Positions 1-31,633 of a stretch of 64,000 bases of DNA are shown here, piece by piece (position 1 is the stretch's first letter; the number at the start of each line of letters is the position of its first letter). The stretch lies in NCBI GenBank assembly GCA_028622995.1, contig JAJQJQ010000013.1, positions 1,860,001 through 1,924,000 on the forward strand. The letters are read 5' to 3'. The position numbers and the translations under genes are program-made. This DNA is from Panagrolaimus kolymaensis (taxonomy: Eukaryota > Nematoda > Chromadorea > Rhabditida > Panagrolaimidae). The notes below the pieces were generated by a model that was not told where the DNA came from, did no database searches, and saw only the letters and a list, made by a program, of their open reading frames with translations.

Positions 1-29
1 TTTAAAATATTAAAGGTATGAATTATTAC

Positions 30-1448: not shown

Positions 1449-1699
1449 GAAATGAGAAAAAATTAAATCAAAAACAAAAAATATTCCAAGTCTCAAACCT
1501 TTTAATCTTTTTTTTTTTCAAAATTTTTTTTATTTTAATTTTTGGCCTTTCGTTCACTTAAAAAAACGTTAAAAAATAAAATTTTTAGAATAATGGCTAA
1601 AAAAATGTTTTACACTTCTTGATTGCATTTATTTTTTTCTTAATTTACTTTTCGACTTCTGGGCATTTATTTATTTACTGTGCTTTTAAAAATTTTTTT

Positions 1700-7133: not shown

Positions 7134-7819
7134 TAAATTCAGAGAAAAATAAACACAGCAAATGAGGCAGTTGGCAACCTCGGGAAAGGTAAAGAAAAGC
7201 AAGTTAACATTTTGCTTTTATATCTTGTTGCCTAGAGGCTTTGCAGTATGTTAAGACGTAAGAGAAAAACACATATTTTGCAGTTAATCAAGCAATAGCG
7301 CCTGTTTTACTTCTGTCAATTTTTTGTTTGAACTCTTTTTTTTCAAGATGATCCTCTTCCTTAACTTTTTTGTTGGTGTTAAAAATGCTTAGGCCAACTG
7401 CTATTTTTAAAGCAGCAAATTTTTATTTTATTTTTTTGTTAAATATCTTTTTCTTTTCACATTTTTCTTTAAAGAGGTAAAAATTAGAAGAAAAAACTAG
7501 AAAAAAATGCAGGCAAAAGAAAAACAAAACAAACGTGTTTTCTTTTCTCCACCAAAGTGTGTCGCTTTGGCAGTTGAATTGCAAAGGAAGCTATAAATAT
7601 GTTTTTCTTTTCTTTTTCTATGTGTCTTTTTCTTACACTTTCGAGAACTTAAGCTCCTTTTAGCTGCCTGCCAGTTGGAAGTCAATCAAAATCTTATTTT
7701 TATACAAATAAATGAAAAGAAAAAATCGAGGCATATCAAAAACTTTATTTTAAAAATTCCCAAAAAATGCAATGCAAAAAAAAAGGGAAATTTAAAGTTT
7801 AAATATGCCATAAAATTGT
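7134..7819. other. Intergenic DNA between DXO copies 2 and 3
   Basis: Presumed promoter of copy 2 and distal 3' flank of copy 3. AT-rich with A/T runs; no supported coding sequence. Confidence 0.5.
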
Positions 7820-8015: not shown

Positions 8016-8849
8016 TTAATCGTGGATGGCTTTTTTGTAATTATTAATGAGCATTTTCATGTTAATATCCATGAAGAGAAGAGATTTTTTTACTTTATAT
8101 TCAACGCCTTCTTCGATTTGTGATAAATTAAAATAATGTAGCTTCATATTTTGATTATTTCGAGATCCAACGATAATATTATCGATACCAGCTAATTTTG
8201 CTTGAATGAAAATATTGACTTTGTTTTTATCTGGTAATAAAAGTTTTTCAGTGGGATTAACTTCATAACTTTTTAATTCAACTGGAATAAAATTATTTTC
8301 AGATATGATAAATCCATCGATTTCGCATGTGTAATGTTCAAAGCATTCAAGATCCGCATTGTATCCTTTCATGTACCGATAAATTGAATAAGGATGTCGG
8401 GTTGGATATTCGAATATTGCAGCTTCAGCAAGTAAACCAATATTGACTTTTGGTATATTTGTGTAAATATGTTGATCTTTTTTACAAATTAAATATATCC
8501 GTTTTTGGATTCCATTAAGTTCAACAATTTTTTCTTGAATTTCTTCATTTCTATTTGGATATGCCAGCGATCTCTTTGCAGCTCGATTTGTGACAATATC
8601 ACCATCCTTGATATCGTCCCAAATATTTTTTAATAAAATATTATTTCGATGCTCATAAAGTATCGGAATATTATTGTATTGATAGTTAATGATGATTCGG
8701 TTGACCATTTCTTCTGATTTAATAGTAAATTTTTTATTTGTTTTAATTGAATTTAATAAATAATCTTTATCAATAAATGGGAATAATTTTTTATCATTAA
8801 TAAAGGGTTCATTTAAGTAATCTAAATTTGAAATACCAAAATATACCAT
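8016..8849 (-). CDS. DXO/RAI1-family (EOL-1-like) decapping nuclease, copy 3
   Basis: Single-exon gene of 277 residues starting MVYFGISNLDYLNEPF. It has the same ordered signatures as its paralogs: ILYEHRNN, GDIVTNRAAKRSL, KRIYLICKK, YSIYRYMKGY, CEIDGF, PVELKSY and a final IVGSRNN strand region. PVELK is the version closest to the canonical DXO motif IV. No introns, and the start is directly at the conserved N-terminal motif. The three copies differ mainly in loops and C-terminal length. The gene lies 130 bp from the left end of a fold-back transposon. The function is inferred to be removal of aberrant RNA 5' ends; in C. elegans the related EOL-1 has been linked to antiviral and learning phenotypes, but orthology cannot be decided here. 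Confidence 0.75.
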   Translation of the reverse strand: MVYFGISNLDYLNEPFINDKKLFPFIDKDYLLNSIKTNKKFTIKSEEMVNRIIINYQYNNIPILYEHRNNILLKNIWDDIKDGDIVTNRAAKRSLAYPNRNEEIQEKIVELNGIQKRIYLICKKDQHIYTNIPKVNIGLLAEAAIFEYPTRHPYSIYRYMKGYNADLECFEHYTCEIDGFIISENNFIPVELKSYEVNPTEKLLLPDKNKVNIFIQAKLAGIDNIIVGSRNNQNMKLHYFNLSQIEEGVEYKVKKSLLFMDINMKMLINNYKKAIHD

Positions 8850-9306
8850 AAAAATAAAAAAAAGGGAAAAAGAAAGGTAAAAAATGAGAAAAAAGCATTC
8901 CCTTTTATACTCTTTTCTTCAGGCAGCGCTGCCAAGAAGAAGAAAAAAGAAAACATGAAAGACAGACACATACCCAATCAGGCTTTGGCGTAATTAAATT
9001 TTAAAAAAAGCGTAAGTGGGTTGGGCTCCGCATGGGAGACTGTATTTGAAAATGTGATTTAAAACCAATTCCGTCAATTTTTTTGAAACGGTCGGCTCCG
9101 ATGAAAATTTTTTTTTTGAGATAGCTTTACCAATGTTTTCGCACATGCTTAGCTTGGCTAATTCCAAGAGGTTTTGGCCAGATGTGTACCATATTCATGG
9201 AGATACAGCTACTTGAAGGTTTATGGTTGAATTAATTCAAAATTATGCCATAATTCATTCTTTCGTTATATTTTTATATTCTCTTATGATTAATAAGTTT
9301 TCGACC

Positions 9307-9591
9307 ATGGAGAATCCGAATTTAACCACCACAACCCTTCATGTATATGCTAAACATCGATTTTTCACCAACGTGGCATGGTTTTTGGCTCATCACGGGT
9401 CACAGAAGCTCGCGGGCGGAATGAGACTATTGCCATTCGAAAGAGCATGTTTTTTTACCCTAGAAACAGGAATAAAACCCGGAAAAAAAATTCCGCACGA
9501 TCATTTGGGAATTTTTGAATATTTCTTTTTACATAAATCAGCTAATAAGATCATTAAGAAAAAATTAGAAAAAATTCATAAACCCATTTAA
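9307..9591 (+). CDS. Hypothetical 94-residue ORF in left arm of fold-back element
   Basis: Small ORF starting MENPNLTTTTLHVYAKH; an upstream in-frame ATG (MINKFSTM) is possible. The protein has a central FLAHHGSQKLAGGMRLL segment and a lysine-rich tail. I do not recognise the family. The same frame is kept open in the inverted copy at 10138-10422 with only a few residue changes, which shows recent duplication of the arms and perhaps some selection, though high DNA identity alone could keep it open. It lies inside the transposon and has no intron signals. Confidence 0.35.
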   Translation: MENPNLTTTTLHVYAKHRFFTNVAWFLAHHGSQKLAGGMRLLPFERACFFTLETGIKPGKKIPHDHLGIFEYFFLHKSANKIIKKKLEKIHKPI

Positions 9592-10137
9592 AAAATCAGG
9601 AAAGCTAACAAAACCATAAAATCAATGCTCCTGGATTTTTTGGTACCAATTTCAACCTTATTTGTTATGCAACATCATCCACCTCGACCAATAGAAGCAC
9701 TAACAGTGCTTAATGAACTTCAAAAATGTGTAAAAATTCAAAAACTGTTATTTTTATTCTAGAATAATGTTTTCTATACCAATTTGAGGTCGTAGAATCC
9801 GAATATGAAGCCAGATTACCACCATTAATAGATAGTTTTAGAGATATGAAGACTTTAAATATGCAAATTTTCATAGTCCCAAAACATTCCTTTTAGTAAG
9901 GAAAACTAGTGAAACGGAGGTCAAATTCGGATTCTACGACCTCGATTTGATATTATAAAGATGATTGTGGAATAAAAATAAGAAATTTTGAGTTTATACA
10001 CATTTTTGAAGTTCATTAAGCACTGTTAGTGCTTCTATTGGTCGAGGTGCATGATGTTGCATAACAAATAAGGGTGAAATTGTTACCAAAAAATCCAGGA
10101 AGGTTGATTCTATGGTTCTGTAAGCTTTTCTGAATTT

Positions 10138-10422
10138 TCATATGTGATTATGAATTTTTTCGAATTTTTTCTTAATGATCTTATTAGCTGATTTATGTAA
10201 AAAGAAACATTCAAAAATTCCCAAATGATCGTGCGGAATTTTTTTTCCGGGTATTATTCCTGTTTCTAGGATAAAAAAACATGCTCTTTCGAATGGCAAT
10301 AGTCTCATTCCGCCCGCGAGCTTCTGTGACCCGTGATGAGCCAAAAACCATGCCACGTTGGTGAAAAATCGATGTTTAGCATATACATGAAGGGTTGTTG
10401 TGGTTAAATTCGGATTCTCCAT
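10138..10422 (-). CDS. Hypothetical 94-residue ORF in right arm, inverted copy
   Basis: Inverted-arm copy of the ORF at 9307-9591, identical over most of its length (MENPNLTTTTLHVYAKH, PHDHLGIFE) with small differences such as the last residues NHI in place of KPI. Function unknown. Transcription through both arms would give a long self-complementary RNA rather than two separate messages. Confidence 0.35.
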   Translation of the reverse strand: MENPNLTTTTLHVYAKHRFFTNVAWFLAHHGSQKLAGGMRLLPFERACFFILETGIIPGKKIPHDHLGIFECFFLHKSANKIIKKKFEKIHNHI

Positions 10423-10680
10423 GGTCGAAAACCTATTAATCATAAGAGAATATAAAAATATTACGCAAAAATGAATTATGGCATAATTTTGAATTAATTC
10501 AATAGTAAACCTTCAAGTAGCTGTATCTCCATGATAAGGTACACATCTGGCCAAAACCTCTTGGAATTAGCCTAATTAAGCATAGTTGAAAACCGGGGTG
10601 CATATATCTCAACAAAAAAAATTTCGACCGGTGCCGACTTTCTTGAAAATATTTAAAAAAATTGGTAGAATCGGTTTTAA

Positions 10681-10916
10681 ATACCATTCGGTAGCCCTTA
10701 TTCTGCTGCATCTTTTGGTGTCAAAATTATCTATCCAAATAAAGATTCCCATGAAGCTGTGAACCCACTTACGCTTTTTTTTCGACCCCTATCAATTTTT
10801 TTTAGTAGGGGTCGAAAAAAAAGTGTAAGTGGGTTCACAGCTTCATGGGAATCTTTATTTGGATAGATAATTTTGACACCAAAAGATGCAGCAGAATAAG
10901 GGCTACCGAATGGTAT
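10681..10916. mobile_element. Nested 236-bp palindromic MITE with TTAA duplication
   Basis: Starts ATACCATTCGGTAGCCC and ends with its exact complement; TTAA stands on each side (10677-10680 and 10917-10920). The left arm of the host element lacks this insert and reads straight through at the matching place (GATTTAAAACC), which marks the empty site. The insert is almost wholly palindromic around a short T-rich spacer near 10795. TTAA targeting suggests a piggyBac-type source; a 6-bp TTTAAA duplication is also compatible. Confidence 0.75.
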
Positions 10917-11008
10917 TTAAATCACATTTTCAAATACAGTCTCCCATGAGGAGCCGAACCCACTTACGCTTTTTTTTAAATTTAATTACGCCAAAGCCTG
11001 TACCCAAT

Positions 11009-11942
11009 GTGCAAATACGAGTCGATATTTTGCAAGAAAACGAGTTCCTCAATTTTTTTTCTCTTTCCTTCGCGAACTTCATTTATTTTTTTACTTTATT
11101 ACAAAAATCACAAGACTATCATCACTTCTCGATTAAAAAAAGATGTGAAGCTCTAAACAAAAAAGAAAAAAGGATGGTTGAAAAGAAATTCAAATTTTTT
11201 TAATAATTTAAAAATCACAACTAACTTGCAAAAAAAAAAAACACTTAACTTTTGTGGTTGAAATTTACGGTATTTGCAGAATGAATATTTTTGGCTCAAA
11301 AATCTCTCTTCCACCACTGATTATTGTAAAGGAGATATGGTCCTTTTTCGTTAAGCGTGTAATCAAATTTTCTTCAGTCGACTAAAATTATTTTTCCTTT
11401 GGTTGTATTCTCTTATTATGCATTTACACGAAAATACTTTGAATCAAAAAACATTTCAAAGCCGATGAAGAAAGAAAATGAAGCTTATAAAAGAGTTTAT
11501 CATTTGAAAAATGGAAAATTAAAGTTTCCTCCCTCAAAACTAACTATTCATCAATTTCTCCATGTAGTTTGACACCTACACAATCATTGGATTGAAACTT
11601 AATTTATTTCCTAATTATTTGTTGATTAATCGAAAGTTGAACTCATTCCAAAACAAAAAATAAATATAGGTCACAACAACCAATTTGTGTTTTCGTTTCG
11701 CGTTTGTACGAAATTTTATTTTGGTTTCGTTAAACTTTTTTTATACCTTCCTTTTTTTGTCGTAAATTGCATGTTTTTTATTTTACGCTCGTTAAGTTAC
11801 CTTTTTTCTTTTTTTCCTTTTCTTTTTTTGAGTTTATTTAAACTAATTAAGTTTTTTTAATGAATAAAAAAAACATTCTTCGAACTGAAAAGTTTTTCTT
11901 CGAAAAATGGTTAAAGTTTTTTGATTTCATTTCTTTTAAAAA
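11009..11942. other. Intergenic DNA upstream of the C6 gene
   Basis: AT-rich region containing the presumed promoter of the C6 gene. No ORF with splice context and no repeat structure recognised. Confidence 0.5.
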
Positions 11943-13200
11943 ATGGTGATTTTTCTATCGAAAAAAATTATTTTATTTTTTATATTTTTATCTTGTTTTC
12001 CATTAGTGGGATATTCTTGTGCACCCACAAGCGCTGTATCATCGCCAACAGTCACCACCACAACTACTATCCCATTGACAACCACTACCACCACCACCAC
12101 TGTTGCACCAACAACAACAACCACAACAGTTCCAACTACTACAACCACCACTACTCCTACAACTACATCGATGACTACCACGACAACAACCACGACGACA
12201 ACTACTACAACAACAACACCTTTAGGTAAGAAAAATATTGTAAAATTTTTTTTGTTGTTCTTGTCCATCAAAATTTTAAACTAAGCGTTTTGATTCCCGA
12301 ACTTTTTTGGAGATTTTTTTTTGTATCTAAAAAAGCCAGGGAAATTTGGATTTCTTTTTTTCATGTTTTTCATTAAAAGCAAGCAAAATCTGGATTAGAA
12401 GAATAATTTTTTATGTGTTGAAAAGTTTTTGTTTTTTTGCAACTTCATTAAAAAAATAACCGAATGAATGAGTTTAAACTTTAATGCTAAAATATAAAAA
12501 CAAGAAAAAATTGTTTTAACCTTGATATTTTGATTATGCACTAAATTGGTAGAGCTAATATTTTTATGGCTACCAAAACTAGAAATAAGAGCTTCAAAAT
12601 TTCGATATAAAAATCATTTCATCATTTTCGAAATAACTTAAAGAATAATTTTAAAAAGGTTTTTATCAAACAAACAAAAAATTATTACGGGAAGAATATA
12701 AAAAAAAAGAAGCTAATATTTTTTAATATATTTAAATTTTTTCAACAACAAAAAAAAGCTGCGAGCTTGAAATTTATTATATTTTTCTTCTTCAATCCCC
12801 TGTATTTTTTATAGCTTGTGCCACATGTGCTGATGTCGAAGTTTTACCTTCTGATATAGGAGGAACGGATAGACCTGTAACTCAAACGCCTGGAGTGGAT
12901 GCAAATGGTTGCGCAACCTTAATCATAACTTGCATGGCTGTCAATCCCACTTCTCAAATTGTATTCTTTGTGAGTCCAATCAATTATTTTTATAATTAAT
13001 TTTTTTATTATTTTAATTATCAACTAACAAAAAAAATTTATTTTTAGTGGTTTGAACAAATGGCCGATCGAGGTGTTTCAATGGATACTGGAACTATAAG
13101 CCGAACCCTAACTTGTAATGCAATGATGCAATTAGAATTATTTGAACCTGACACAGGTGCCACAGGAATAGTCGATCAAGTTCAATGTTTTTCAATATAA
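11943..13200 (+). CDS. Secreted Thr-rich protein with nematode C6 domain
   Basis: Three exons, 11943-12225, 12815-12969 and 13048-13200, give 196 residues. An N-terminal signal peptide (FFIFLSCFPLVGYS) is followed by about 65 residues of almost pure Thr with Pro, Val and Ala, a likely heavily O-glycosylated mucin-like stalk, then a C-terminal domain with six cysteines (CATC, NGC, ITC, LTC, VQC). The cysteine pattern and the segment TLIITCMAV...SQIVFF match the nematode-specific C6 domain of unknown function. Such proteins are expected at the cell surface or in secretions. The Thr tract is built from mixed ACN codons, so it has probably been kept by selection rather than by simple repeat slippage. 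Convergent with the RanBP9/10 gene 170 bp away. Confidence 0.8.
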
Positions 13201-13369
13201 ATAAATAAGACTTTTTTTTGCTTTCTCTTTGAAATTTAATTAATAAAAAAAATTAATATTTTATTTAATAAAAAAAGGTAGAAAACTTGCATAATTAAAA
13301 AAAAATAATTTTTTACAATAAAAAAAATCCATAAAAAAAGGCTTTAATTAACTATTTAAAATTTTTTAT

Positions 13370-16300
13370 TTATTCTTCATCAGCAATATTGATATCATCT
13401 TCATCTATATCATTTCGATGCATAATAATAAGATCATCATCAATTTCATTATCATCAACGTCATGACCTCCTCCACCTTCAATATCTTCATCTTCATCTT
13501 CACCTGAATCATTTTCATCCGTTTCAGGTGACGAAGGTTGTCGTTCATCATCACTTTCATTATCAATGGAATTATTTTCATTATTTTTATCCAAAAAATT
13601 AGAAAAAATTATTTCATCCACTTTTGCAAAAGTTATTCCTCCAGGTGATAATAGAGATAATTGAGGATGCAAATTTTCAAGGTAGCTAATGTTTTTACTA
13701 ATTGGTGGAAGTTGACCTTTTTTTGAATCTCCTTCACTAGCGGCGTCTAAAATTGGTTAGTTTTTAGCATTTTAAATTAAAATAAGAATTATTTTTTTTG
13801 GTTAATTTTGGAATTAATTTTCTATAGAAAATAAAGCTTACGCATGGTGGTTCGATTAAATACAGTTGCAACATATTCTCGATGCTCTTGTGAAATGAGA
13901 TCAGCATATTTATCCTTGATTAAATCTGGATCAGTTATCATCATTTCAAGAACTTTCTAAAAAAAGAAGATATAATTTCATTTCTGTAAATATTCGAAAA
14001 ATAAATTGGAATTTAGTCAATCAAAAAGTTGCACCAAAAAATTCGGTTAAATTATTAAAAAAAAATTATTTTAGAATTTTTTTGAATTAAAAATTCACCT
14101 ATAAGAAGAAAGTTAATTTATTTGCTAACAAAAAACACAATTTTTTGACAGATTTGAGAGCTGTATTTTTTCTTGAACATTTCTACCAAAAAATTAAAAA
14201 CAGAAATATCAGAAAGCCTTCAGTAAAAAAAGATTTTTTTGTTTGTTTCTTAAAAGTTTGTGTTTTTTGATTAAAAATTCGAATGAAAACTTTAAAAAAA
14301 AGAATTTCACAAAAATTGATTAACAAAAGTTTTTTTTACTGCTTTTATAACCTACCGTAACTTTAACATAAATAGATTCAGGAATATCTTTCATATTTTT
14401 AACAATTCCCCATAAATCTCGAGATTTTTCAAGGATTTCTAAATATGGTTTATATTCTTCAATAGAATTTTTAGTTATTATTTCTTTTCGTCTTCGTGGT
14501 GGTGGCATTAAAGCGGAAAGATCTTCCATTTCGGTATCATCATAATAATTTCCCGCTGATGAACCATTAGATTCATACATTTCCGCGATAATCGTGGTTG
14601 TCGTTGTGGGACAGCCATTTTTTTGATTTTTGTCATGACCGTTTGAAGATTCAATATTTGCGCTTTCAGAATTAAATCCATTTTGAGAATTTTGGGTTCC
14701 TGAATTTGCTGCTGCTCCTGCTGAAGCTGATCCAGAAGATGAATTTCGAGAATATGATCGATGAACATTTGTAGCAATAGTTTGATTTTGAGAATTGGAG
14801 GGTTCCGCCGTAGTTTGACTATTTCGTCGCTTTGTTCCACTTCGTTGTGATGAAGCTGCTGAAGCATTAGAAGATGAAGGAGAATTTTTACGCCGTGATG
14901 ACGAAGATGATGATTGAAGTTGTTGTTGTGGGGTGTTTTGAGAAGCACGGGTAGGCATTCTTGAACTTCCAGGTTGAGGTTCAATTGGAGTGGGATTTTT
15001 CATTTGCTGAAAAACATTGAAAATAAATTACAGAGTTGTCAATTTCTCTTCAGATATTGATTTACAAAAATAAAAATATTTAGAAAATAACCGTTTTTTG
15101 AATTAGCAAAAAAAACAATTTTAAGTCTTAATTAATTTTTAAAATTTTACTTACTCTAACAACTTTCATCATATCTTCAATAAATGCTTGAACTTTTAGC
15201 AAAACCAACAAAGCTTTATATTCGGATTTTGAAAAGGTTGAATTAAAATTCTCAAAAATTTCATTTAAATGTTCAGAAATTTTTCCACTTTTAATTATTT
15301 GAACAGCTTCTTGACGCTTTTTCATAAATTCTGGGTCATATTTAATTTTGATGTTAGTTTGATCTACAAAAGCTTGAGTGGCTTCTGCATATCCGAGATG
15401 GACCAACCAATTTGCAACGGCATCATTCATCCAAAGTGCTTTTTCAGGGGGAAGTTGAATGGAATTGAGACTCTTTTTAGCGTAATTTTTAACTTTTTTA
15501 AAATCCTTTTCAATATCATATAAAAATGGACGTTGACCAAAATTGGTTTGAACCACTTCGTTACAGGCTTGCATTCCAACCACCGGGTAATATTCATGAT
15601 CCAGAGGTAAATTAATATCGAGGTAGCCTAAAATATTTAAATAATTATATTTTAATGAAAAATAATGAAATTGTGAAAGATCATTTTAATGCAGAAAATG
15701 TTAAAATTTAAAATAAACTTTTCCATAAAAAAGAGAGGTATCACTTTTCTGGAAATAATTTTGTGAAAACTGTGTCAATTTTTAAATCAAAAATATAAAG
15801 AAAAAAACTGGTCGAGAATTAGGGTAAAATTTTACTCTGTTTTTTTACTTTTTCTTCTTTTTTTGAAGCAAATTAAACAAAAATATTCTTTCTTTTTTTC
15901 ATTGCTTCAAGAAATTTACATATATATTTTATATCCATGATAGATGGAAACTTACCAAGATTTTCACCATTTTTAGTGAAAAATATTTGTTTATTAGCAA
16001 AATTCACTCCACATCCAACTGTATCATTTATACCAAAATTGGGGCCATAATCGGTTCCTTTTCCAGATGAACAAAAAAAATGTCCATCATCTCCATGATA
16101 ACCAAACGATAAATTATCCCATCCAGGAAGTCGATTAGTTAAAATACTTTTTTCCATTATTCCAATTCCAATTAAACTATTTGTTGCGCTAAAAGCCCAT
16201 CTAATTTTTCAATATTTTTTTTAGTCTTTAGAATAATTTTTTTGGCTTACTTTCGTTCTGGAGTAATAATAGTTACTTCAAAATAATATACTCCACAACC

Positions 16301-17193
16301 CAATGGAATAGAATGATTTGCTCGAACTGAAGCTGCATCATTGTGATTGACTCCTAAACCTTTATATTTGAGAAGGGTTTTATCGGCTGAAACGTAAATG
16401 GTTTCTCGACGATCAATGGATGACCAATGAGTTGGTAGAGGAGTGACCTGGAAAAAAAATGAGTGGAATATATGGATTTTAAAAACTCAAAGATGCTTTT
16501 TCTAAAGGCACAATAATGAAAATTTTTTCAACTTTGATTTTTTTTTTTCAAAAGTCAAAAAATCTTGCGCTTTTAGAAGATTTTCAAAACTTGGACTATG
16601 TTAGAAAAAATTGAGTTAATTTTTAGCTGCTAGATTTAAATACTTGTAAATCACCTTTTAGAAGATATGGGCCATGCTAACCAAAAATAAATGTCCCTCT
16701 CTCATTTTTAATTTTTTAACCATTCAAGTTTTTTAGAATATATTATTTTTGAATTTTATATCTTCAAAGAAAAATAAATCGCTCGAAAAAAGTCCAGGAG
16801 TTTTACAACTTCCTTTTTTTAGCTTTTTTAATACTAAAATTTCATATTTTGTGTTCCAATAAATTACTTGTGACGTGAGTCCCCGTTCTCAATATACCTT
16901 TTTTTCTTATTTTCTCAAAAAGCATCACTAACCTTTGGATCAACACCAGGATATAATGAAGCAATTCGTCTATTGATATCCCGACCTGGAGTAACAAGCT
17001 CAACATCTTTAGGATATTTAACTCCCATAAAATTATTATCATCTGAATAATATGGTCGATTAATCCTTGTGGTCATATGTCGAAGATAATCGGGATTATT
17101 ATATACATGATGATAAGGATATAATCCAGCTAAAATTCTTGTTTCATTTTGTCGAGAGGCTAATTCTGCATCGATCATTGGAATATCATCCAT
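13370..17193 (-). CDS. RanBP9/10-like (RanBPM) CTLH-complex scaffold
   Basis: Seven exons: 17193-16933, 16447-16251, 16200-15956, 15627-15155, 15006-14356, 13956-13842 and 13746-13370, all in phase, 772 residues. A SPRY domain (about 100-265) shows the RanBPM signature GWD.LSFGYHGDDGHFF and VGCGVNF. A LisH motif follows (about 300-325, VANWLVHLGYAEATQAF), then CTLH (about 335-392, ending VQAFIEDMM), a Ser/Asn/Gln-rich linker (392-560) and a CRA-type C-terminus (YKPYLEILEKSRDLW, MITDPDLIKDKYADLI) with a strongly acidic tail. RanBP9/10 are subunits of the GID/CTLH ubiquitin ligase and act as scaffolds. The acidic tail after CRA seems unusual for the family. The start lies just after a CCCACAG acceptor, consistent with a trans-spliced 5' end. 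Confidence 0.9.
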
Positions 17194-20100
17194 GATGATG
17201 GCGACTGTGGGAGATAGAATTTAGATGGATGAAGAAGAGAAAAGTTATTGTTTTTTGGCAGTGATCTGAAAATGAAAGTAATATTAGAAAGAATATAAAA
17301 TTTAAAAATTAGCAATAACTGAAGGCGTTTTAATATCACAAAAAGAGTTTTGAGAATATATGAAAAAAGTTTTTGTGACACACGATAAACAAAAAAAATA
17401 ATGTTGGATTATGCGTGCTACTTTCAGATAATGTTGTGAAAGAAAAAACGTGAAAAGGACAATGGAATAACTTGGTCGTTGATTATTAGAAGAAAAAAAC
17501 ACACAATCAAAATCAAATCAATAAAAGAAAAATGGGGAGATGGTGCGTGATGAACCCTTTTTTATCATCAAAAAATCACCTTTCTATTTATACTTCTCTT
17601 ATTAGTGTTCGGTTTTCTAATTATCTTAAAGTTTTTTTTTCTGTTAAATTCAAACAGAAAATACTTTTACAGTAACAAAAAATTAGATTACATTTTTGAT
17701 AAATTTTGTTGCAAAATTTCTCCAAAAAATATTAAGTTTTTAGTAATTTAAAAATAGTTTATGTTGTCTGTCACATTTTTCTGATTGTTCTAGAGTCAAT
17801 ACGACAAATATTGATTAAAAAATATATGTACATACAACAACAACGAAAAGGCACCCTTCAAAGAAAAGATGGAGAAGTAAAAACATAATATTCTTGACTT
17901 TTAAAATTATCTTCTATCCAATTTTTATTAGAAAAAAATCAAAAAAAAGATTTTTTTAATTTCCTGTCATATTTTCAGCCTTCCAAAAGCTAAAAGTGGA
18001 TAAGTAGCCAAAATCAGTGATAGCACCACAAAATGGCTTTGTAAAGTCGCATTTTTACCTAATTAAATTTTTTCTTAGTAGTTTTACTAACAAAATAATT
18101 TCTGATCGATATATTTTTATTATTGAAAAAAAAAATAACCAAGACACCACCACCTCGACACCGCCGACAACAACGACGACAATAACTATGGCGAAAGGGT
18201 GAAAAAGGGGAAAACTAGCACGTGTCTGCAGCAACGAAAAAAAATAATGCACACAAAACAACACTCTTTGGAATATATTTGAAAATATATAGCAAAGTCG
18301 TCCTTTTTTTCTCTTTTTTTTTCTTTTTCCTTATGCTTTTTTTTGCTTTGGGTTTGTTTCATTTCATTCTTTTTTTTTGGATGGACGCTGCTGAAATATA
18401 AAATGTGCGTCGCCCGACGACTTTTCGTGTGGATGGTGTTCAACAGAAAGCAGCTGCGAGACATACATTTTGTTTTATATATATTTTTTTTCTCGGGTTG
18501 AAAAAAAGAAAAAAGAGTCCATGTTCGATTGAAAAATGAAAAGTCGTCGTCGTCGCCTGCATTTTTCACTCAAAATTGTGTGTGTGTATGTTTGGTCGTC
18601 GGTTGGTTGAATGAAGAATCAGCTGGAAAAAACAAATTTTTTTCTCTCTCTCTATGTGTTATTTGTTTTTTGGTCGTTTATCGTTTATGACTTTTGGTTA
18701 CTCTTTTTTGTTTTCTCTGCTATTCGACGTCTTAAGTTTAAATGGAAAAAAAGGCACAACAATAAATGATTTTTCGGATGGATGACTGACTGACTAACTG
18801 ATTTGTGTGTGACTGACCAGGTGATTGCAAAAACTATGGAAAAATTGAGAGAATAAAATAACTTAATTACATAAAAGTGCTAATGAAGATCTTTGACACA
18901 AAAAAAAATAACAAATGTCAGGAGATTTTAAGTTTTTTATTTTTAGTATAAAATTTGTAAATAAATTTGAAAAAAAGTAATAATAAATAAAAATGCAAAA
19001 TAATCTTGAAAAATTTAACAAATTTGCATCCAACAAAAAACAGTTTTCTGAATAAAATAAAAGAAAATTTTGAGAAATTATTAGAAAATATAGAAATAAT
19101 TTAATTTTAAAGTTTTTAACTTTATAGAATTACACTTCCTGTCTTATTAGTAGTTGTTATCAAAAAAAAAACTAAAAAAAGCATCGAAAGCAAATAACAA
19201 GCATTCGTCCGATGTATGTAAGAGTTTCTTCCGCTGACAGAAAAAACGAAAAAAATTTTGTTGTTGTTGCGAGTGTTAAAAAAAGTATTTTTCAGGCCTT
19301 TTTCTTTTTCTCGTTTTTAACAGATTTTTTTGTTTTGGTTTTTTTCCATTAATAATAAAAGCAAAAAAAACCTTTTGAATATTTTAGCTTTGTTTTTTCT
19401 TTTCTTTTTTTAGCTCTCTCAATATAAATGGAAAAACATAGATTTTTTTCGAGAAGAATAAAAGAAACTTAAATAATGAAACAGATTTTTCCTTGAAGCA
19501 GAAAAATGATGAATAAAAAAATTGTTTAACTGAATTTTATTACGATAAATGCTGTCCTGAGCACTGGACGCTTAAAAAGAAAAATTCCATAAAAAAAAAT
19601 TATTTGGGATTTATAAAGTTTGATATTTTTGAGAAAAATTATATGGAATTTATACAAAGAAACTTTGTAGATTTTTTTCTGAAAAAACTTTCAATGTTTT
19701 AACTTTATACATACATTTTTAAGAATCAATCAAACAAAATGAAGAGAGGAAAAGAAAACTCTTTTTTTGAGTTGAATTTAATTATGAAAATCTTTTATAA
19801 AAAGTAAACAAAAATTAATGTCAAGATTGAGAATGGATGAAATTTGTTTATGAGTTTTCGAAATAAAATAAAAGCTTTCTTTATAAACGTTACCATTCAA
19901 CAAGATAAAATGTTTTTTAGATTGCCGCAACATCGATCGATATTGTATTTATTTTTTATTTATTTTGATCGTTCGCGTATTATTTTGGGAAGCTTTTCTT
20001 TTATCCTTTTTTTAAAATGTTTTTGTTAAACAAGTTTTTTTCCTTTGAATATTTAAAATAATATATATTTTTTTGTTTTAAAAAACTAAAGTAAATGATT

Positions 20101-21300: not shown

Positions 21301-22803
21301 TTATTCAAAATCCTTGAAATTCATTTTTTTAACCATCTCTTCAATTTCATTTTCACTTAATTGCTTTCCATTTTTAGAGGAAACATAACCTTTATAATTT
21401 TCACAGAAATCAATATCTTCGCATTTTTTATTTAGATCGCCAATAATTGGAATTAACTTTGAATGAGCATAATCAATTTCAAAGCCTTCAAAAATTATTC
21501 CACAACCACGAGCATTTGGAATTCCATTTTTTAATAGTTGAGCCACTCGATAACTTGCTTTTAATAAAGCAATATAATCATTTTTTTCAAGGCTAAAAAA
21601 ACTTTCCATTATTTTTTCTTTGAACTCTAAAATGGGGAATTACCTAAAAATATCGCTTGACAAATGTTTTCGAGGAATAACAACGGTGAAGCCAGGAGTA
21701 TTTGGAAATGGAGTTAAAAATGCAACATGATTTGGATCTTCCCAAACACGCCATTGAGAAATTTCACCCCGGATTAATTTTGCGAATAAATTCTGAAAAA
21801 TAAAATAAAAATAATTTTAAATTAAGAAATTTTTACACTTTCAAAATTTATAAAGAAAAATTTTTTATTTGTCCAAGCAGAATTTTTTTTGTATTTGTTA
21901 TTAATCCTGGTACAAAAATGATAAAGCGAAACTCACTGTGTTTGTTGCTTCTCCATGGAATTCATTACTAACTTCTTTATTATCGGTATCAGTCATTCTT
22001 CCACGAATTTGTTTTTGCAAGTTTGTCAAAGCTTCTTCAGCTTGTTGTGGACCATTATTGGAAGAAATGTAACCTAAGAAAATATATATCTTGAATGTAT
22101 CATCAAAGTGTAAAATTATTTAAAATACATATTTTTTTTACGCAGAGTTATTTGGCTTTTGAACAACAAGGTGCATGGAATTTAAACATCATGAACTCAA
22201 CTTTCCACACTAAAATATTGAACTAACTTTTTTTACGCTTTTTATAATCCCAAAACAAAGAAGAAAAAAATGTTGAAGTTGTTCTTAAATTAACCAAAAA
22301 AAATTAGAGTTTAGCAAAAAGATTATTTGCATAATATTTTTAACACACAAAATTTTTAAAATAACTTTAGAAAAAATGAAAATAGCATCACAAACCAGGA
22401 AAAGTTTCATTATATTCAGGTTCTCCAGCTATCATTGCATTCCATTCAGCTTTAAGCCCGTGTAATGGAATAATGCGAACTCCAAGGGTATTATTGCAAT
22501 CAAGTGATCCTCCAACCATTGCGCAACTAAAAAAAATCTTTTTTCCAACTAATTATTTAATTAATGTCTTTTTTACCGTTGAACTTTTAATGATTCACAT
22601 AATTTATGGGCAACTTTTTGAGCTAAAAGCATAAAATCAATAAACTTTTCAATTGGCAAATCCATGATTGTTGTAAAATTGGGTTCGGGTTCTTTTGCAT
22701 TAACGTAAACGGTGCCAGGTGTAAATGGATGAGAATCCAATTCGACCATGAATATGGCATTTGAAAAAAGAAAAGAATTTTTTGAGCAGGATGACAAAAA
22801 CAT
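21301..22803 (-). CDS. Tandem HIT-domain protein, catalytic triads degenerate
   Basis: Five exons: 22803-22577, 22526-22396, 22073-21937, 21792-21644 and 21592-21301; 311 residues. Two HIT-like domains. Domain 2 is clear: LFAKLIRGEI, AFLTPFPNTPGFTVVIPRKH, then YAHSKLIP where the histidine triad HxHxH should be; only the central His remains (Tyr and Lys replace the outer ones). Domain 1 has ELDSHPFTPGTVYV and LGVRIIPLHG with no triad His. HIT proteins hydrolyse nucleotide-phosphoramidates, Ap4A and aminoacyl-AMP. With this triad, activity may be lost or altered. The ATG lies 2 bases after a TTTCAG acceptor, a typical trans-splice site. The gene is transcribed divergently from the tri-domain fusion gene, with 1.35 kb between starts. 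Confidence 0.7.
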
Positions 22804-24154
22804 TGCTGAAAGTTATATTTGAAAATATAAAAATAAAAAAAATATGATGAAAATAGCGAAAAATTACTAGATTTTAAAAAGCAAAAAATGAATCATACTT
22901 TAATATGTCCATTTTTATTTAAAGTTTTTTAATTAGTACGCGTAGACAGAAAATTTAAAATCCTCTTCTTTTTTTTCATTCTAAATGTTTGTCAATCGGT
23001 GACAAAATTCCACAAGCCCCGCGCGTTTATAACATTTTTATTTGAAATTTAAAAAAAGAAATGAAAAGAAAAATTCTGACTGACTGACTCACACACTCAA
23101 TGCATTTCTTTTTTTTGTGTTGTTGACGACGACAGAAAGTTTATTTTCTTTTTACTTGATAAAAACATTAGTCTTCCTTCGTGAAGGAAGAGGAGGAGGA
23201 GTCAAAGTTGCATAAAAAACTGTGTGAAAAATGAGTTAACCAAGAGCAAGTAAGCTTTTTTTATATTGCTTACCTGATCAAAAAATATGTATTTGCAGTG
23301 AAATAAAGCTTTGGAAATAAATACTGATAAAAAAAATTACGATGAATGAATAATTCGAAAATAAACAACCGCCTCCAATACATACAACGATTAAAAAAAA
23401 GTATGCGTATACTTTTTTTTATTTTTTATCATGAAAATAAAATGATTTAAAAGAAGGTGAATAAAAGAAGCATCGAATTTATGTAAAATCATCAGTTACA
23501 GGAAAACAAGATTTCATTTTCTTAAAAGTCTTATTACTGCGATACCACTTTTACTTTGAGTAATTGCAGAGTTATCCCACTTTAGCTTTTTTTTCTTAAA
23601 ATTTATTTTTAAATTTGTATGCTTTTTTTTTAGTAATTGCCCTTTATTTTAAAAATTTTAGACTAAAGACTCACAATATAATAAGTAAAAATAATTAAAG
23701 ACAAAGAGCAAGTATCTAACAAGAGGGAGATGAGGGGCGGCTTATTTAGGATAAAACTGGGTTTTAAACAAGTTTGGCTAATCTTGTAGGAATTTTAAAA
23801 ACGATATCTAAATAGTGTAGAAAATACCGGCATAAATAAGATTATTTTTCTGCCAAATTAAGACACATTTTAAAACCCACAAAATATAAGAAATAAAATA
23901 GATAGGTGTAAAATCGAACTTGGAAAAAATAACATCCGTTGTGAAAAGATTATAAAAAAGTGTGTTTACTATAAACTTTAAGATTATTAAAAAAAATCGT
24001 CTACAATTTTAAAACGGCTCTTAACATAAAAATGTTTATATTTTTCATTTTATATATCAAATCGTTTTGTTTTTCAAACTCCTCTTTTGAATTGTATGCA
24101 AATAAGCTAATACTGTTTTTTTTTTCAGAAAAAAAATTGAAAACAAAGCAAAAA
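22804..24154. promoter_or_regulatory. Divergent promoter region, HIT gene and tri-domain gene
   Basis: Region between two divergent start codons. It contains a TTTCAG acceptor 2 bases before the HIT gene start and a TTTTTTTTTTCAG acceptor ending at 24128, 26 bases before the fusion gene ATG, both likely spliced-leader acceptors. GACTGACTGACT occurs near 23079. No defined motif was assigned to a factor. Confidence 0.4.
24116..24128 (+). other. Probable trans-splice acceptor for the fusion gene
   Basis: A pure T run followed by CAG, 26 bases upstream of the chosen ATG. It supports the start at 24155 over the longer open frame beginning at 24032, whose first 41 codons would straddle this acceptor. 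Confidence 0.5.
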
Positions 24155-27100
24155 ATGGGTTTGCAAAATTACCCTGTTCCTGAATTGGATTCCACTTTGA
24201 CCGAAATCAAAGAAATCTTCCAACGTATGTTTTCTGAATCTGATTATGCCATATTCCAAAAAACTTTGGAAAATGCTTATGAAGTTATGAAAAGCAATAA
24301 TTTGGTATTTCATGATTCTGTAAAAGAAAAGAAAAATTGGGCTACAGAAATGTTTCAACAACATTTACTTTCCATTCGAGAACCAATTCCATTTTCAACT
24401 GCTGTTGGATGCATTCTCAAGCCACTTGAATTTCAAATGAGTCAAAGAGACCAAGCTGTAACGTTGCTTCATGCTATTGCAAACTTATTTTCCACTCCCT
24501 CTTTACTCCAAATTTCTGAAAAATGGGAAACAACGCAACAAAAAAATATGTTTGCTACTTGTCGAATTCCTGGGGAAACAAAAGACGAACTTGTAAATCA
24601 TCCTGAAAGTCGGCATGCGATTGTTGTTTTTAAAGCGCATGTTTTTGTGGTAGATATTCTTGATGAAAATGGAAATCCAATGGATATTCTTATTATAAGA
24701 GATTCAATCACTTCCATAATGGAATCAAACAAAATTGAAGCCGATGCCAAAAATTCCATTTGCTATTATACTGCTTTAAACAGAAACGAATGGGCCCGAC
24801 ATTACCAAAAAATGTTAAATGATCCATTTGTTAAACCATCTTTAGAAAAATTTCATAATGCCATTGTCACTTTGATCCTTGAAGATGATGTTTTAGACCT
24901 TTCTAAACCCGATGCGGCTTTTCAAAGCTTCCAAAAAAGCAAGCTTCGAAATTTTGATCAAACCACGAATATCGTCGTTTATGAAAATTCTGTTACTGGT
25001 CTTATTTGTGAGCATACCGCTGTGGATGGATTGATTATTTCAGAATTAGCGTTAGCTTTGAAAGAATTTACAAAAAAATCCCAACAAACTGATCAAATTT
25101 CTCCTACCCCAACGATTTCACTAATGCCATTGAATTTTAAATTAGAGGTTTCTGTTGTAAATGTCCCAAATGAAAAATTAATACAAAAAATAACTTATTT
25201 CGATTTTGATTTATATCCTGATATTATCGATTTACTTAAAGAATATCGAATTTATGATTCATGGATTGTTTTAGCTTTGCAATTAGCATTGAAACAAACT
25301 TTTGATGATAAAACTTTGTTGACGGTTAGTGTTTATTTTCTTCTCTTTTTTAGCAAAATTTAAACTAAAAAATATTTGCTCGTTTTTAGGTTTTTCCAAC
25401 TCATGTTCGCCACTTTGTTGAAGGTCGATGTGATCCAACATACGTTGCAAGCAAAGAAAGTACTCAACTTACAAAATTCCTTGAATCCATAAATCCCATT
25501 ACTTTGATAACCGATGAAAACCAAGCTATGAAAGGTTTAAAATTATTTTGGGCCTCTTTGGAAACCCTGAAAAATAAAGTTAAAAAAACTAAAATGGGTG
25601 AAGCAATTGGAACTCATATTGGAATTATTCGCAGAATGCTCAATGATGAACATCAAGAATTGAAAACTATGTTAGAAGCTTTTGCAACTCCATCAGTCAT
25701 TCTAACTGGAGATTCTAATATATTTGAAGCTGTCGAATTTGGTACAGGCAATATTTATGCTCAAAATCAATTATGCGTTAATTACCTGGGTAAGTACAAC
25801 CAATCCACTGGCATAGAAAATTAAAGGGCTAATAAGATAGAGACCGGCAAGTCGCATGCCTGAGTCTTTCACTCATTTTTTTTTCTTCGTCATTCTATGA
25901 GTGATAAAGAGAAAAAAGAGAATGTTTATTATTAATTTAATAAATGGCAAATAAATTATGCATATTTACCATAATAGAGATAATAGAAAATATTATATTT
26001 CAGGTGACAAAGATAAAGTAAGAATAACTCTTCGAGCCAGTGGCTTATTTGCCGAAAAACTTCCTCAACTCCAAGATAACCTTAAAACATCCATGAAAAC
26101 TATGTTAATCTTTGCTGTTCAACTTGGAATTATTAAACAAATGGATGCCATTGAAATAATTCAAAATACTTTTTCCGACCCTCAAAAAACCAATGAAACC
26201 CAACAAAACTTTGCTTTAGCCATTCATGGAGGAGCTGGAGAAATGTTTGCAATGATGCCTGAAATGTCAGCAATCATAAATTTTGCTCTTCGAATTGCAA
26301 TTTTGGTTGGAGTTGAAAGTTTAAAAAAATTTCAAAATTCTGTAGATGCTGTAGAAGCTTCGGTAAAAGCTATGGAAGATTGCTTTATTTTCAATGCAGG
26401 CAAAGGCGCAGTTTATAATTGCAAAGGCGAACATGAACTTGAAGCAGCTATTATGGATGGAAAAAGCGGCAAAGCTGGAGCTGTTGCATGCATAAAAAAT
26501 CTGAAAAACCCCATTTGTGCTGCAAAAAAAATTATGAAAAATTGTAAACATGTTTTTCTTAATGGAAAATCAGCTGAAGAATTTTGTGATGACCTTGATA
26601 AAGTTGATCAAAAATATTTTGATACTGACTTAAGAAAAAAACAATTTGAAGCTGTAATTAATAGTTTCAATAATAACAATAATGATAAAAATGATTATTT
26701 TAAACATCCACAAACGGTTGGAGCAGTTGCAATAGATCAAAATGGAAGATTAGCCGCAGCAACTTCCACCGGTGGAATGGTAAATAAAATGGATGAAAGA
26801 ATTGGAGATACAGCTATAATAGGAGCTGCAACATGGGCTGATGATAAAGTTGCTATTAGTTGCACAGGCAAGCATTAATATATATAAATATATTTAGGAT
26901 ACTTATAGCTCAAATTTTTTTATTAAGAACCAAAAGTTATTTAAAAAAAATATGTATTTTTCTTAAAAAAATAAGAACAAAAAGCTTTTGTCTAAAAAAA
27001 TTTAAAAAAGTAATGAAGAAAGTTTTCCCATTTTTTTGAATTTCGTCAAGAAAATATTATTCACATGTTGCGAATGAAAATAAATTTTATTTTTCAAAAA

Positions 27101-28808
27101 AGCAAAAAAAAATCATAAAAAATATACAAACAATTCAATGTTTTTTTTTTCAGGAGACGGAGAAGCTTTCCTTCGAAAATGTGTTGCTTCTAAAATTGCA
27201 TCCAAGAATGGAAATAACATTGATGATCTCCAACAAACTTGCATCAATATTCTTGATCATGATTTAAAAAATATTTTAGCTGGAATGATTGTAATTGATT
27301 CAAATGGAAATATTGTTGGATTAACAAATGCACAAATGTTTTTTGCAAGTTATAAAAATGGCAAAATTTCAACTAAAATTGCATATTCTGGAGATCACAT
27401 GGATGGAAAAAATGGTGGTGGTGAAACAAATTATGCGGAAAAAATAATTGCTCCAAAATCATGGGTTGATCCAATCCTTCATTCAAAAATAGCTATCACA
27501 AATAAATGGTATACTGGGGTTTTTAAACTTCAAGATACTTTATTTCATTCAACAATAGATTATTTTCGAAAACAATGTGGTTATAGTTATGTTATGACTC
27601 CATTATCAACTAGCACCATTTCATCGCCTATGGGATTGGGTTCAGATTCTTTACCGGTTTCAGTGAATTTATTTGGTGAAAATATTTATCTTGCAGATTC
27701 CATGCAATTTACTTTGGAATACTTTTTGAGGTTTGTTTTTACATATAAAAATTTTCAGAAAAAAAATGAATGAAAAAGTTGTTAAATGAGTCAAAAAAAA
27801 TCCCTTAAAAAGGAGGCGAAAAGTCTTTTGATAATCCAAAAGAAAAAAATTTCAGAGTTCAGGATGGCATTCCTGGAACATATTATGTTTCACCAAGTTT
27901 TCGAGGTGAAGATCCTGATGCAACACATTTAAATCAATTTTATCATGTTGAATGTGAAATCCTTGGAGATATGAAAAAAGCGATGAAAATTGCTGAAAAG
28001 TTTTTACTTTCAACAACGAAAACAATTCTTAAAGAACAAAAAGATGTGATTATGGCTTCCGCTGGAACTATTGATCATGTCACTCAAGTAAGTTGTTTCG
28101 ATGAAAAAAAATATATTTTTTAACAAGAATTCTTTTAATATTAAAAAATATATGTACTATTTTCAGTTTATTCAACTTTTTGAAAAGCACAATGGCCATC
28201 TTCCCCAAATCACTTTAGACGAAGCCATAGCCATTATGCCTTCACCAGATTATTATGCTTCCGTAGAAGAAGGTCGCCCAGAGCTTGGTTTGTCTCTCAA
28301 ACGAAAAGGTGAAAGATATTTAATTGAAAAATTTGGTGGAGCTGTATGGCTTACTGAAATGGACCATCTTTCTACACCTTTTTATCAAGCATATGTTGAT
28401 GGAAGTTATAGAAAAAAAGCTAAGGTGAGTTACATAGAATAAAATGTTATTATTAAAATTCTTGTTGTAAAATTTATGTTAATTTAAAATTACGTTTTTA
28501 TAAAAACCAAAAAAAATTATAGAAATATTTCGTATTTTTAGGCTGCGGATTTGCTTCTTGGTTTAGGAGAAACTTTGGGTTTGGGTGAAAGACATAAAAC
28601 CGCTCAAGAAGTTTGTGAAGCTTTAGCTCATCATGAAGTAAATCAAAATGAATATCAATGGTATGTCGATATGAGAGAAGTAAAACCCTTAAAAACATCG
28701 GGTTGGGGAATGGGCACTGAAAGATATATATGTTGGTTGCTTCAACATGATGATATTCGAGATATCGCAATTTTACCCCGACTTAAAGGATTCAAATATT
28801 TGCCTTAA
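24155..28808 (+). CDS. Trifunctional fusion: carnitine acyltransferase, asparaginase, AsnRS-like asparagine synthetase
   Basis: Seven exons, 24155-25324, 25390-25789, 26004-26867, 27154-27730, 27856-28087, 28167-28424 and 28542-28808, join in phase to about 1255 residues. Residues 1-590: choline/carnitine acyltransferase, starting NYPVPELDSTL, with catalytic His287 in CEHTAVDG and RHFVEGRCDPTYVAS; the usual STSQ motif is replaced near ILTGDSN. Residues 594-900: Ntn-hydrolase asparaginase/isoaspartyl peptidase, with LAIHGGAGE, FNAGKGAVYN, the nucleophile Thr761 in QTVGAVAIDQNG, and TSTGGM...ERIGDTAIIG. Residues 905-1255: class II synthetase core of AsnRS type, motif 2 FRGE (1019-1022) and motif 3 GWGMGTER (1221-1228); no anticodon-binding domain, as in archaeal AsnRS-like asparagine synthetase. 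Exon 3 encodes the acyltransferase C-terminus and the asparaginase without a break, so the first fusion is seen directly. The exon 3-4 intron is GC-AG. Domain identities are from motif recall. Confidence 0.85.
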
Positions 28809-29247: not shown

Positions 29248-31633
29248 ATGTGGTTCGCATGTTTTATTTCTATTATAGGAATATTTTTATTTTATAATTT
29301 TTATTGGAAAAGAAAAAATTTACCACCAGGTTAATTCTTGCCAAAAACCATAAATCTATAGGAAATTTAAAGCAAAAATCTTTTGTTGCCATTTTTAACA
29401 TTTTTCAAACCAATTTTTCAGGTCCAACACCATTTCCATTGATTGGAAATCTTTATGATATCGCTTCCAATCCTCCCGGCTATGCTATATTTGAAAAATG
29501 GCGAAAACAATATGGCGAAGTTTATACTTATTGGATTTATGGAAAACCTATTATCGCTGTAAATGATTATAATTTGATTCATGAACATTTTGTTAAAGAT
29601 GGTGACTCATTTTCTGGTAGATCAGATTGGGGATATCATATGGCTTGGTTGCGGGGAGGCAAATATGGAATTAGTCTCATCGATGGCGAACCGTGGATAG
29701 AACATCGAAAATTTATTATTCAAGTTTTTAAAAATTTAGGAATGGGTAAAGGAATAATGGAACAAAAAGTAAGAGAATTTTATAAAAGTTTTATAAAATT
29801 TGGCGTTGAAAACAAATTATTTAAATTTCTCTGAAAAGAATAATTTTTTTATAATTCTCGTGTCAAAACAAACTCTTTTTGTAGTTTTTTGTTTCGGGAA
29901 TACAATGTTTTCTTGCTAAAACCAAAAATAAAAATATATATTTTTGGTTTTAAGATCAAAAAATCAAATACTTTCCCGTTGAGATCGAAATCTTTATTAT
30001 TTTTAGATTCAAGCAGAACTGAAAATTTTCCAAAATGAAATTTTTGAAATGATGAATGGCAAAAATCAAATTGAAATCGATCCAATTCCATTAATCGATC
30101 GAACCATTGCAAATGCAATAAATCAAATGCTTTTTGGTTTTTCATTTCACAGTGAAAACCAGAAAGAAATTTATTGGAAACTCAAACAATGTTTAACGGA
30201 ATTTCAAAATATGATTACTTGGCCTTCAATAAGTTTTGCATTAATGAGTCCATGGATATTTTCAAGTTTACCATTTTTTAATAAAAGAATGGCTAAATTT
30301 AAAGGTAAAAGCAAATCGAAGAGCAAGAAAAAAATAAAAAAAACTGCATTTTAAAAGAAATTTGCATTTCACGAAATTTCTTTAATTTAAAATTCGCTAT
30401 TTTTTTTAAAACTCTCCTCGGAAAAACCGTGAAAAAAAACATTTGTACTTTACTTTTCTATTCTTTTTTTACTTTTTCAAAACTCTCCTAACATTAATAA
30501 TTAAACATCAGATTTTTCTTCTTCATTTTTTAACATTTTCTAGCTACGTATGATACCATGATCGCCCATTTCGTCGAGTGGATCAATGACCACAAGCTTG
30601 ACATGTCCAACCAATCATCCACAGACATCGAAGCCAAAGATTATGTCGAAGCATATCTTCGTCAAACTTCTTCCAACAATTCTTCTGAAAATCCATATTT
30701 TACTGAAACATATTTAAAAAATATTTTATTTGATCTTTGGATCGCTGGACAAGAAACCACAGCAAATAATTGCATTTTTTCTATTTTATATTTATTAAAT
30801 AATCCGAGCATTCAAGAAAAATTACATTCTGAATTGGATAAAATTATTGGGTCAAATCGACAAATAACTATGGCAGATAAAAATTCCTTAATTTACGTAA
30901 ATGCATTTATAAATGAAGTTCAACGAAGTATTAATTTACTTCCACAAAATATGTTTCATAAAACAATGAATGATACAAAAGTAGGAAATTATTTTATTAA
31001 AAAAGGCACAACTATCATTCCACAAATTTCTTCGGTGCTTTATGACGAAAAAGTAAGTATATTTGCATTTTTAGTCTTGACACCAAAAAAAATTTGTACA
31101 GAGGGTTTCGAAGCAAAAATAAAGAAAATATATGCAAAAACTAAAGCCTTTAAGAAACTTTTAAGAAAAACTTAAATTTTTACTCGCATCGAAAATTTAA
31201 AATTCGCTTTTCGCCGTGAAATTCACAAAAAATTAATGAAATATTTTAAAAAAGTTTTTTGGAACATCGAAAAAAGGGAGAAATTTTTTTTGGGATTAAT
31301 TAAAGATGCGATTTTATTTGATTGAATTTTCCTACGAAAGTCTTTTTTTAGATCTTTCCTGAACCCCATAAATTTAAACCCGAACGTTTTATCGATGAAG
31401 AAAATGGTGAACTAAAAAAATTTGAAGAATTGATTCCATTTTCCATTGGAAAGCGACAATGTTTGGGAGAAGCTTTAGCTCGAATGCAATTATTTTTATT
31501 TATCTCAAATTTTTATAATCAATTTGAAGTTCAACCCATTGATATGGAAAATATTCCAACATTAACCAAGATTCCTGGTATTTCCATTCAACCAACGCCT
31601 TTTAAATGTATTTTAAAAAAGCGATTTATTTAA
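29248..31633 (+). CDS. Cytochrome P450, nematode CYP2-clan type
   Basis: Five exons, 29248-29329, 29422-29768, 30007-30304, 30544-31052 and 31352-31633, total 505 residues, the normal length. An N-terminal membrane anchor (MWFACFISIIGIFLFYNFYW) is followed by the proline-rich hinge LPPGPTPFPLIGN, the GKYGISLIDGEPWIEHRKF helix-C region with the W..HR heme-propionate motif, I-helix AGQETT, K-helix EVQR (ExxR), ERF, and the heme loop FSIGKRQCLGEALA with Cys449. It is expected to sit in the ER membrane and oxidise small lipophilic substrates with NADPH-P450 reductase. The hinge and the FKNLGMGK segment resemble C. elegans CYP33/34/35-type enzymes. All key residues are present; substrate unknown. 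Same strand as, and next to, the tri-domain gene, so a shared pathway is possible but unproven. Confidence 0.92.

Follow-up and report, generated by a model that had tools for sequence, protein, structure and literature searches.

The window analysed here is a stretch of 64,000 nucleotides from the nematode Panagrolaimus kolymaensis (assembly GCA_028622995.1, contig JAJQJQ010000013.1, positions 1,860,001 to 1,924,000), and its forward strand carries, from ATG to stop at 24155..28808, a fusion gene of 1255 codons plus stop that joins an acyltransferase, a threonine asparaginase and a synthetase resembling asparaginyl-tRNA synthetase (AsnRS). As proposed in an original prediction made from the sequence alone, seven exons (24155-25324, 25390-25789, 26004-26867, 27154-27730, 27856-28087, 28167-28424 and 28542-28808) join in an unbroken reading frame. 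Five of the six introns have GT-AG ends and one, intron 3 (26868..27153, within the asparaginase module), has GC-AG ends with its donor at 26868; the resulting junction, SCTG/DGEAF, aligns without a gap with 10 relatives, and C810, G812, G814 and F817 are invariant there. A domain search of the joined protein, one of the checks that the prediction had suggested, matched Carn_acyltransf at residues 7-492 (E=1.2e-52), Asparaginase_2 at 594-884 (E=1.4e-77) and tRNA-synt_2 at 926-1248 (E=1.9e-32). The boundary between acyltransferase and asparaginase (about residue 590) falls inside exon 3 (residues 524-811) and that between asparaginase and synthetase (about residues 890-912) inside exon 4 (residues 812-1003), as had been foreseen for both joins. 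The active-site signatures of the three enzymes also stand at their predicted places, with EHTAVDG starting at residue 286 (hence His287), TVGAVA at 761, FRGE at 1019 and GWGMGTER at 1221. Chance is excluded, since a search with the full chain gave 250 database proteins within the threshold of E <= 0.001 and a top score of 1128 bits. An artefact of the gene model is rejected, given that both joins lie within single exons and are conserved in relatives; the three-enzyme gene is confirmed at the level of the gene model.

The same module order was found in fishes, a scorpion, a brachiopod and a rotifer, contradicting the earlier statement that no animal enzyme with this order was known; the suggested search for the architecture in other organisms thus revealed its conservation in several animal groups. 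For each search, only the best matches were listed, namely 120 of 250 for the full chain, 120 of 1086 for the search giving the bacterial synthetases and 120 of 320 for the HIT protein discussed below. Among the 120 full-chain matches listed, all three Pfam domains are present in 119, fish names are attached to 106, and four other named animals are represented: the scorpion Centruroides, the brachiopod Lingula, the rotifer Rotaria and the nematode Panagrolaimus, the last being the named match listed without the synthetase domain. Several of the listed records carry the gene name si:ch211-256m1.8. Identity to the fish protein P0001 is 35% in the acyltransferase, 48% in the hydrolase and 65% in the synthetase, and across non-nematode relatives it ranges over 28-36% for the acyltransferase and 57-66% for the synthetase. 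On these comparisons, the fusion gene very probably represents, in nematodes, the orthologue of an ancient multienzyme of animals that is called saiyan in fishes.

Excerpts of PMC12919797 report saiyan as essential in zebrafish for normal cover by iridophores, the reflective pigment cells, crediting the result to Salis 2019, and excerpts of PMC12918100 count it as an iridophore-related colour gene that is on in white, not orange, clownfish skin; in the available portion of PMC10606920, si:ch211-256m1.8 appears within a list only. The literature searched, which was thin on subscription journals, yielded gene-level mentions only and no description of the architecture, and the portions of it that were available gave no described chemistry for the fish gene.

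The acyltransferase module spans 24155..26203 on the forward strand (residues 1 to approximately 590, covering exons 1 and 2 and the beginning of exon 3; PF00755). Its profile matches in the PDB are ChAT, COT and CrAT, and in 11 aligned rows E286, H287 and D291 are invariant, the codon of His287 in the catalytic-type motif EHTAVDG lying at 25013-25015. Carnitine acyltransferases have a C-terminal STS motif, and the place where it would be expected reads TG by eye, the profile match stopping before that place. Arg518 of mouse CrAT is presumably the arginine that binds the carnitine carboxylate; at this position the worm reads I-G-T-H, the family profile I-G-P-H, COT F-D-R-H and ChAT I-D-N-H, so that both the alignment and the PDB profile place a residue other than arginine in the worm module. 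Because of this altered position, carnitine is a doubtful acceptor. Of the carnitine-like acyl chemistry suggested earlier, the catalytic histidine is thus retained while the acceptor is brought into question.

The threonine-type asparaginase or isoaspartyl peptidase module follows at 26213..27419 on the same strand (residues 594 to about 900, exons 3 and 4; PF01112). Residue 761, encoded at 26714-26716, falls opposite residue 1 in beta-subunit chains of known structure such as 1jn9_B, and T761, R789 and D792 are invariant in 11 aligned rows. This agrees with a predicted EcAIII-type threonine hydrolase in which the nucleophile would stand at the start of the predicted beta subunit.

At 27453..28808, also on the forward strand, lies the synthetase module (residues about 912-1255, exons 4-7; PF00152), with motif 2 (FRGE) from 27899 and motif 3 (GWGMGTER) at 28701-28724. 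Alignment with PDB sequences identified these class II motifs within an AsnRS catalytic core, and the same core was seen in an AlphaFold2 model and fold comparison of the orthologue P0121, which we took as Panagrolaimus from its likeness. The N-terminal anticodon-binding domain is absent, the PDB match starting at position 132 of the 434 in 1x54 and at query residue 42.

In the fish, scorpion, brachiopod and Candidatus Parabeggiatoa chains, the hydrolase and the synthetase are separated by about 300 extra residues in the alignment, and many of the 120 full-chain matches listed carry a PF01230 (HIT) annotation. This double-HIT module is not in the fusion chain of the window. A separate protein of 311 residues with two HIT modules is instead encoded by a divergent gene at 21301..22803 on the reverse strand (exons 22803-22577, 22526-22396, 22073-21937, 21792-21644 and 21592-21301). 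Its residues 11-305 match residues 883-1173 of the scorpion fusion protein at 43% identity (E 1e-78). Since the hydrolase match in that scorpion protein runs to 872 and the synthetase match begins at 1176, the neighbouring gene corresponds to the segment missing from the worm fusion. The three-module account of the original prediction was therefore incomplete, having overlooked the double-HIT module. The two ATGs are separated by 1351 bp (22804..24154) and both are directly preceded by 3' splice-type sites, which would fit spliced-leader addition. The two genes may share their control, and together they would supply the full set of modules, perhaps co-expressed.

The HIT protein passes the Pfam HIT model at 40.6 bits (cut-off 21.5). 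Its second module carries the active-site variant Y-A-H-S-K (21457..21471, reverse strand), identified by sequence, alignment and motif survey. Tyrosine, histidine and lysine of this Y-x-H-x-K site are invariant in 30 aligned HIT proteins, and the histidine triad H-x-H-x-H is present in none of the 30 rows. The survey pattern misses the HIT protein of one bacterial locus (L001), which was read by eye and has H-x-H-x-K.

Trees were built from hand-picked rows, 45 for HIT and, for the synthetase, 70 in a quick and 48 in a careful tree. In the careful synthetase tree, a single group (100/100), set apart from the other bacterial rows used, unites the named animals and fungi, 16 further rows and the Parabeggiatoa contig. 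Within this group, the fungal synthetases, along with some of the further rows, cluster together (99/99) and the worm pairs with P0121 (100/96). Among the bacterial rows used, the closest are a Herpetosiphonaceae metagenome-assembled genome (MAG; L001), a deltaproteobacterial MAG (L002) and the Kineosporiaceae protein P0221. Domain trees had been proposed with the original prediction, and those run for the synthetase give the worm a Panagrolaimus partner and no bacterial or fungal one. Of the horizontal or cluster origin suggested there, a recent gain or assembly thus finds no support in the synthetase tree, and for the synthetase domain a bacterial source further back in time is plausible. 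Viral carriers are rejected: a scan of viral contigs with A5 gave 40 pattern matches and no relatives.

Taken together, we favour, with a probability of roughly 55%, a saiyan-type multienzyme with a separate divergent HIT gene and an aspartyl-amide mechanism. The mechanism itself is offered tentatively, as possible rather than likely, from the residues and the neighbouring genes. The synthetase would activate aspartate or an aspartate-like acid with ATP as the adenylate and join it to an amine, and the HIT protein would bind or cleave the AMP-linked intermediate through its central histidine. The acyltransferase would move an acyl group from acyl-CoA onto the product or its partner, and the threonine hydrolase would open a beta-aspartyl amide, the net product being an acylated aspartyl-type amide metabolite. 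We infer each of these catalytic steps, the substrate and the co-regulation of the two genes. The coupling of acyl transfer with amide handling, anticipated in the original prediction, is a fair hypothesis for aspartyl amides, with carnitine as the acceptor and the synthesis of plain asparagine both doubtful.

Several observations weigh against this reading. The first HIT module of the worm lacks the motif histidine (it reads TLGVRIIPL), the PDB profile match of the acyltransferase ends before the C-terminal part of the module, and the animals as a single synthetase branch are weakly supported (72/68 and 84 in the careful and quick trees, respectively). In the worm, the observations fit fission of the HIT module as well as they fit a duplicate whose embedded counterpart was lost. 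The gene neighbourhoods of the bacterial synthetase relatives, for which 80 of 134 loci (L001-L080) were kept with flanks of up to 10 kb, also raise difficulties. The synthetase was recovered in all 80; in many loci the contig runs out short of 10 kb, and neighbour counts are thus lower bounds. At a threshold of E 1e-8, a relative of S66 peptidases lies near the synthetase in at least 67 of the 80 loci and a methyltransferase relative in at least 60 (a broad family, some matches being unrelated), both as raw counts without a background rate. Given that neither has a counterpart in the animal chain, the bacterial chemistry may differ from that of animals. HIT and asparaginase were each detected in two of the 80 loci, one of the two being in both cases the Parabeggiatoa fusion (L072), and relatives of LuxC, LuxD or LuxE in only three (L001, L002 and L044).

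Among the 59 of the 67 S66 loci with non-overlapping segments, the median distance to the synthetase is 2.4 kb, with 46 on the same strand and 38 within 3 kb, and synthetase, S66 peptidase and methyltransferase possibly form a bacterial cassette. On the synthetase tree, L001 and L002 rank among the three closest rows of bacterial origin, and in L044 an Asparaginase_2 gene lies in one run with the synthetase. These few examples hint that ligase, HIT, hydrolase and acyl chemistry were linked before any fusion, a link that the common neighbours do not support. The L044 run, at 9920-19145 of a MAG locus, comprises genes for the synthetase, GNAT, a MoeZ/ThiF-like protein, ThiS, a class V aminotransferase, the asparaginase and LuxD-, LuxC- and LuxE-like proteins.

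The alternative that fares best, a realistic possibility somewhat short of an even chance, holds that the HIT gene did not split off the fusion but is an older separate paralogue, the worm lineage having lost the embedded copy, and that chance or shared control accounts for the two genes lying side by side. Consistent with it, the listed HIT matches include, in addition to embedded forms, free-standing double-HIT proteins of fishes, scorpions, Hydra, a brittle star and amphioxus, and the HIT tree (27 separate and 18 embedded rows) interleaves the two states with nine changes, at least five of them forced by well-supported branches. The module has thus entered or left the chain repeatedly. However, the neighbouring gene matches the missing segment end to end, and the separate copies of scorpion and fishes are closest to the embedded copies of their own lineages, which indicates that separate copies arise repeatedly. 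Some of the rows counted as separate may, moreover, be fragments of gene prediction.

Asparagine or ammonia handling appears rather improbable. Here the synthetase would make asparagine from aspartate, the hydrolase would remove it and the acyltransferase would tie the cycle to the acyl-CoA state, the whole acting as a regulator of the asparagine pool. The hydrolase residues are conserved, and the NCBIfam 'asparagine synthetase A' models (PRK06462) are the best-scoring families for the synthetase. All four cut-offs of these models were nevertheless missed (224.6 against 322, 197.0 against 389, 67.1 against 309 and 63.9 against 368), and the fold comparison based on the P0121 model places the synthetase nearer to AsnRS than to archaeal AsnA. 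For these reasons plain asparagine synthesis is doubtful, and of the asparagine-making domain proposed earlier, the synthetase-type domain and its motifs are what stands. Such a plain cycle is a possible reading, though a less probable one.

A chain in which only the synthetase matters, some other part being catalytically inactive and acting as a scaffold, is quite improbable. The higher identity of the synthetase than of the acyltransferase to non-nematode relatives and the changed acceptor-site residues of the latter would fit such a scaffold, but the catalytic-type histidine of the acyltransferase and the threonine, arginine and aspartate of the hydrolase are unchanged in all 11 aligned rows. 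Finally, the reading that this nematode assembled the gene anew or gained it horizontally has next to no chance of being correct and is rejected: the distribution is patchy, the only other named nematode among the 120 matches listed being Panagrolaimus sp. ES5, but the order recurs in other animals and the worm pairs with Panagrolaimus, rather than with a bacterium or fungus, in both synthetase trees.

The favoured saiyan-type reading can be extended to an animal biosynthetic machine that combines an AsnRS-derived ligase, a Y-x-H-x-K HIT protein, a CoA acyltransferase with an acceptor other than carnitine and a beta-aspartyl hydrolase to make a new class of acylated aspartyl amides. This machine would descend from a bacterial cassette, be needed for fish iridophores and have been repeatedly split and rejoined, the worm carrying a head-to-head pair; as a whole, this picture is speculative and on balance unlikely. 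The idea of a nematode-only invention is corrected, and the case shows a module that has joined or left one multienzyme several times. The bacterial relatives suggest specialised metabolism over asparagine supply, and the natural split into two genes in the worm offers a clean route to the role of each module.

Elsewhere in the window, a cytochrome P450 coding sequence (29424-31175, forward strand) begins some 0.6 kb past the 3' end of the fusion gene, with PF00067 on 29424-29831 and with further frames. Two near-identical frames of 124 residues, inverted and about 0.5 kb apart (9217-9591 forward, 10138-10512 reverse), look like a recent inverted duplication. Three seemingly related frames (1601-2542 forward, 6219-7217 reverse and 8016-8918 reverse) contain FGISN, EHR and HYTCEIDGF stretches and are perhaps a local family. 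Throughout the last 12 kb (52001-64000), GC and AT skew are both negative, unlike in the rest of the window.

Among known systems, the closest relatives are the Panagrolaimus proteins P0110 and P0241 of Panagrolaimus sp. ES5, together with P0121 (48% identity in the acyltransferase, 63% in the asparaginase, 78% in the synthetase and 65% in HIT). They are entered as three proteins of 912, 308 and 380 residues, of which P0110 and P0121 could be one gene split by prediction; P0241, of 308 residues, is the separate HIT homologue. Fish saiyan (si:ch211-256m1.8) has the worm's order of acyltransferase, threonine asparaginase and AsnRS-like synthetase, and its synthetase is 62-66% identical to that of the worm in six fish rows, including P0120. 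The fish protein is typically about 1510-1600 residues long with two HIT modules in the chain, whereas the worm encodes them in its separate divergent gene. Lacking the double HIT between hydrolase and synthetase, the worm system is a variant of the saiyan type, as is that of the rotifer Rotaria sp. Silwood2, which likewise has a three-module fusion without HIT (P0104) and a separate HIT protein (P0245). Both Rotaria entries give a longest contig of 17659 bp, which suggests that the two genes are linked there too. The rotifer and worm HIT proteins are not sisters on the tree, and their separation was therefore probably independent.

The Parabeggiatoa contig (QNER01000461.1) has the same four modules in a single reading frame of 1499 codons without introns (1-4500, open at the 5' end of the contig). 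It differs in being a bacterial record, from the MAG of a giant sulphur bacterium, and in that the G+C content of the frame (0.536) departs from that of its flank (0.407), so that the gene may have been transferred or the contig misbinned. The free-standing AsnRS-like synthetases of bacteria share the motifs of the worm module, to which the named matches P0238 and P0221 are 46-47% identical; they are single-domain proteins with mostly S66 peptidase and methyltransferase relatives as neighbours. At the level of fold families, the acyltransferase module belongs with the choline/carnitine acyltransferases, from which its acceptor site is altered, and the hydrolase module with the EcAIII-type isoaspartyl peptidases. 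The synthetase module belongs with AsnRS, without the anticodon domain, and the neighbouring protein with the HIT proteins, with Y-x-H-x-K in place of the histidine triad.

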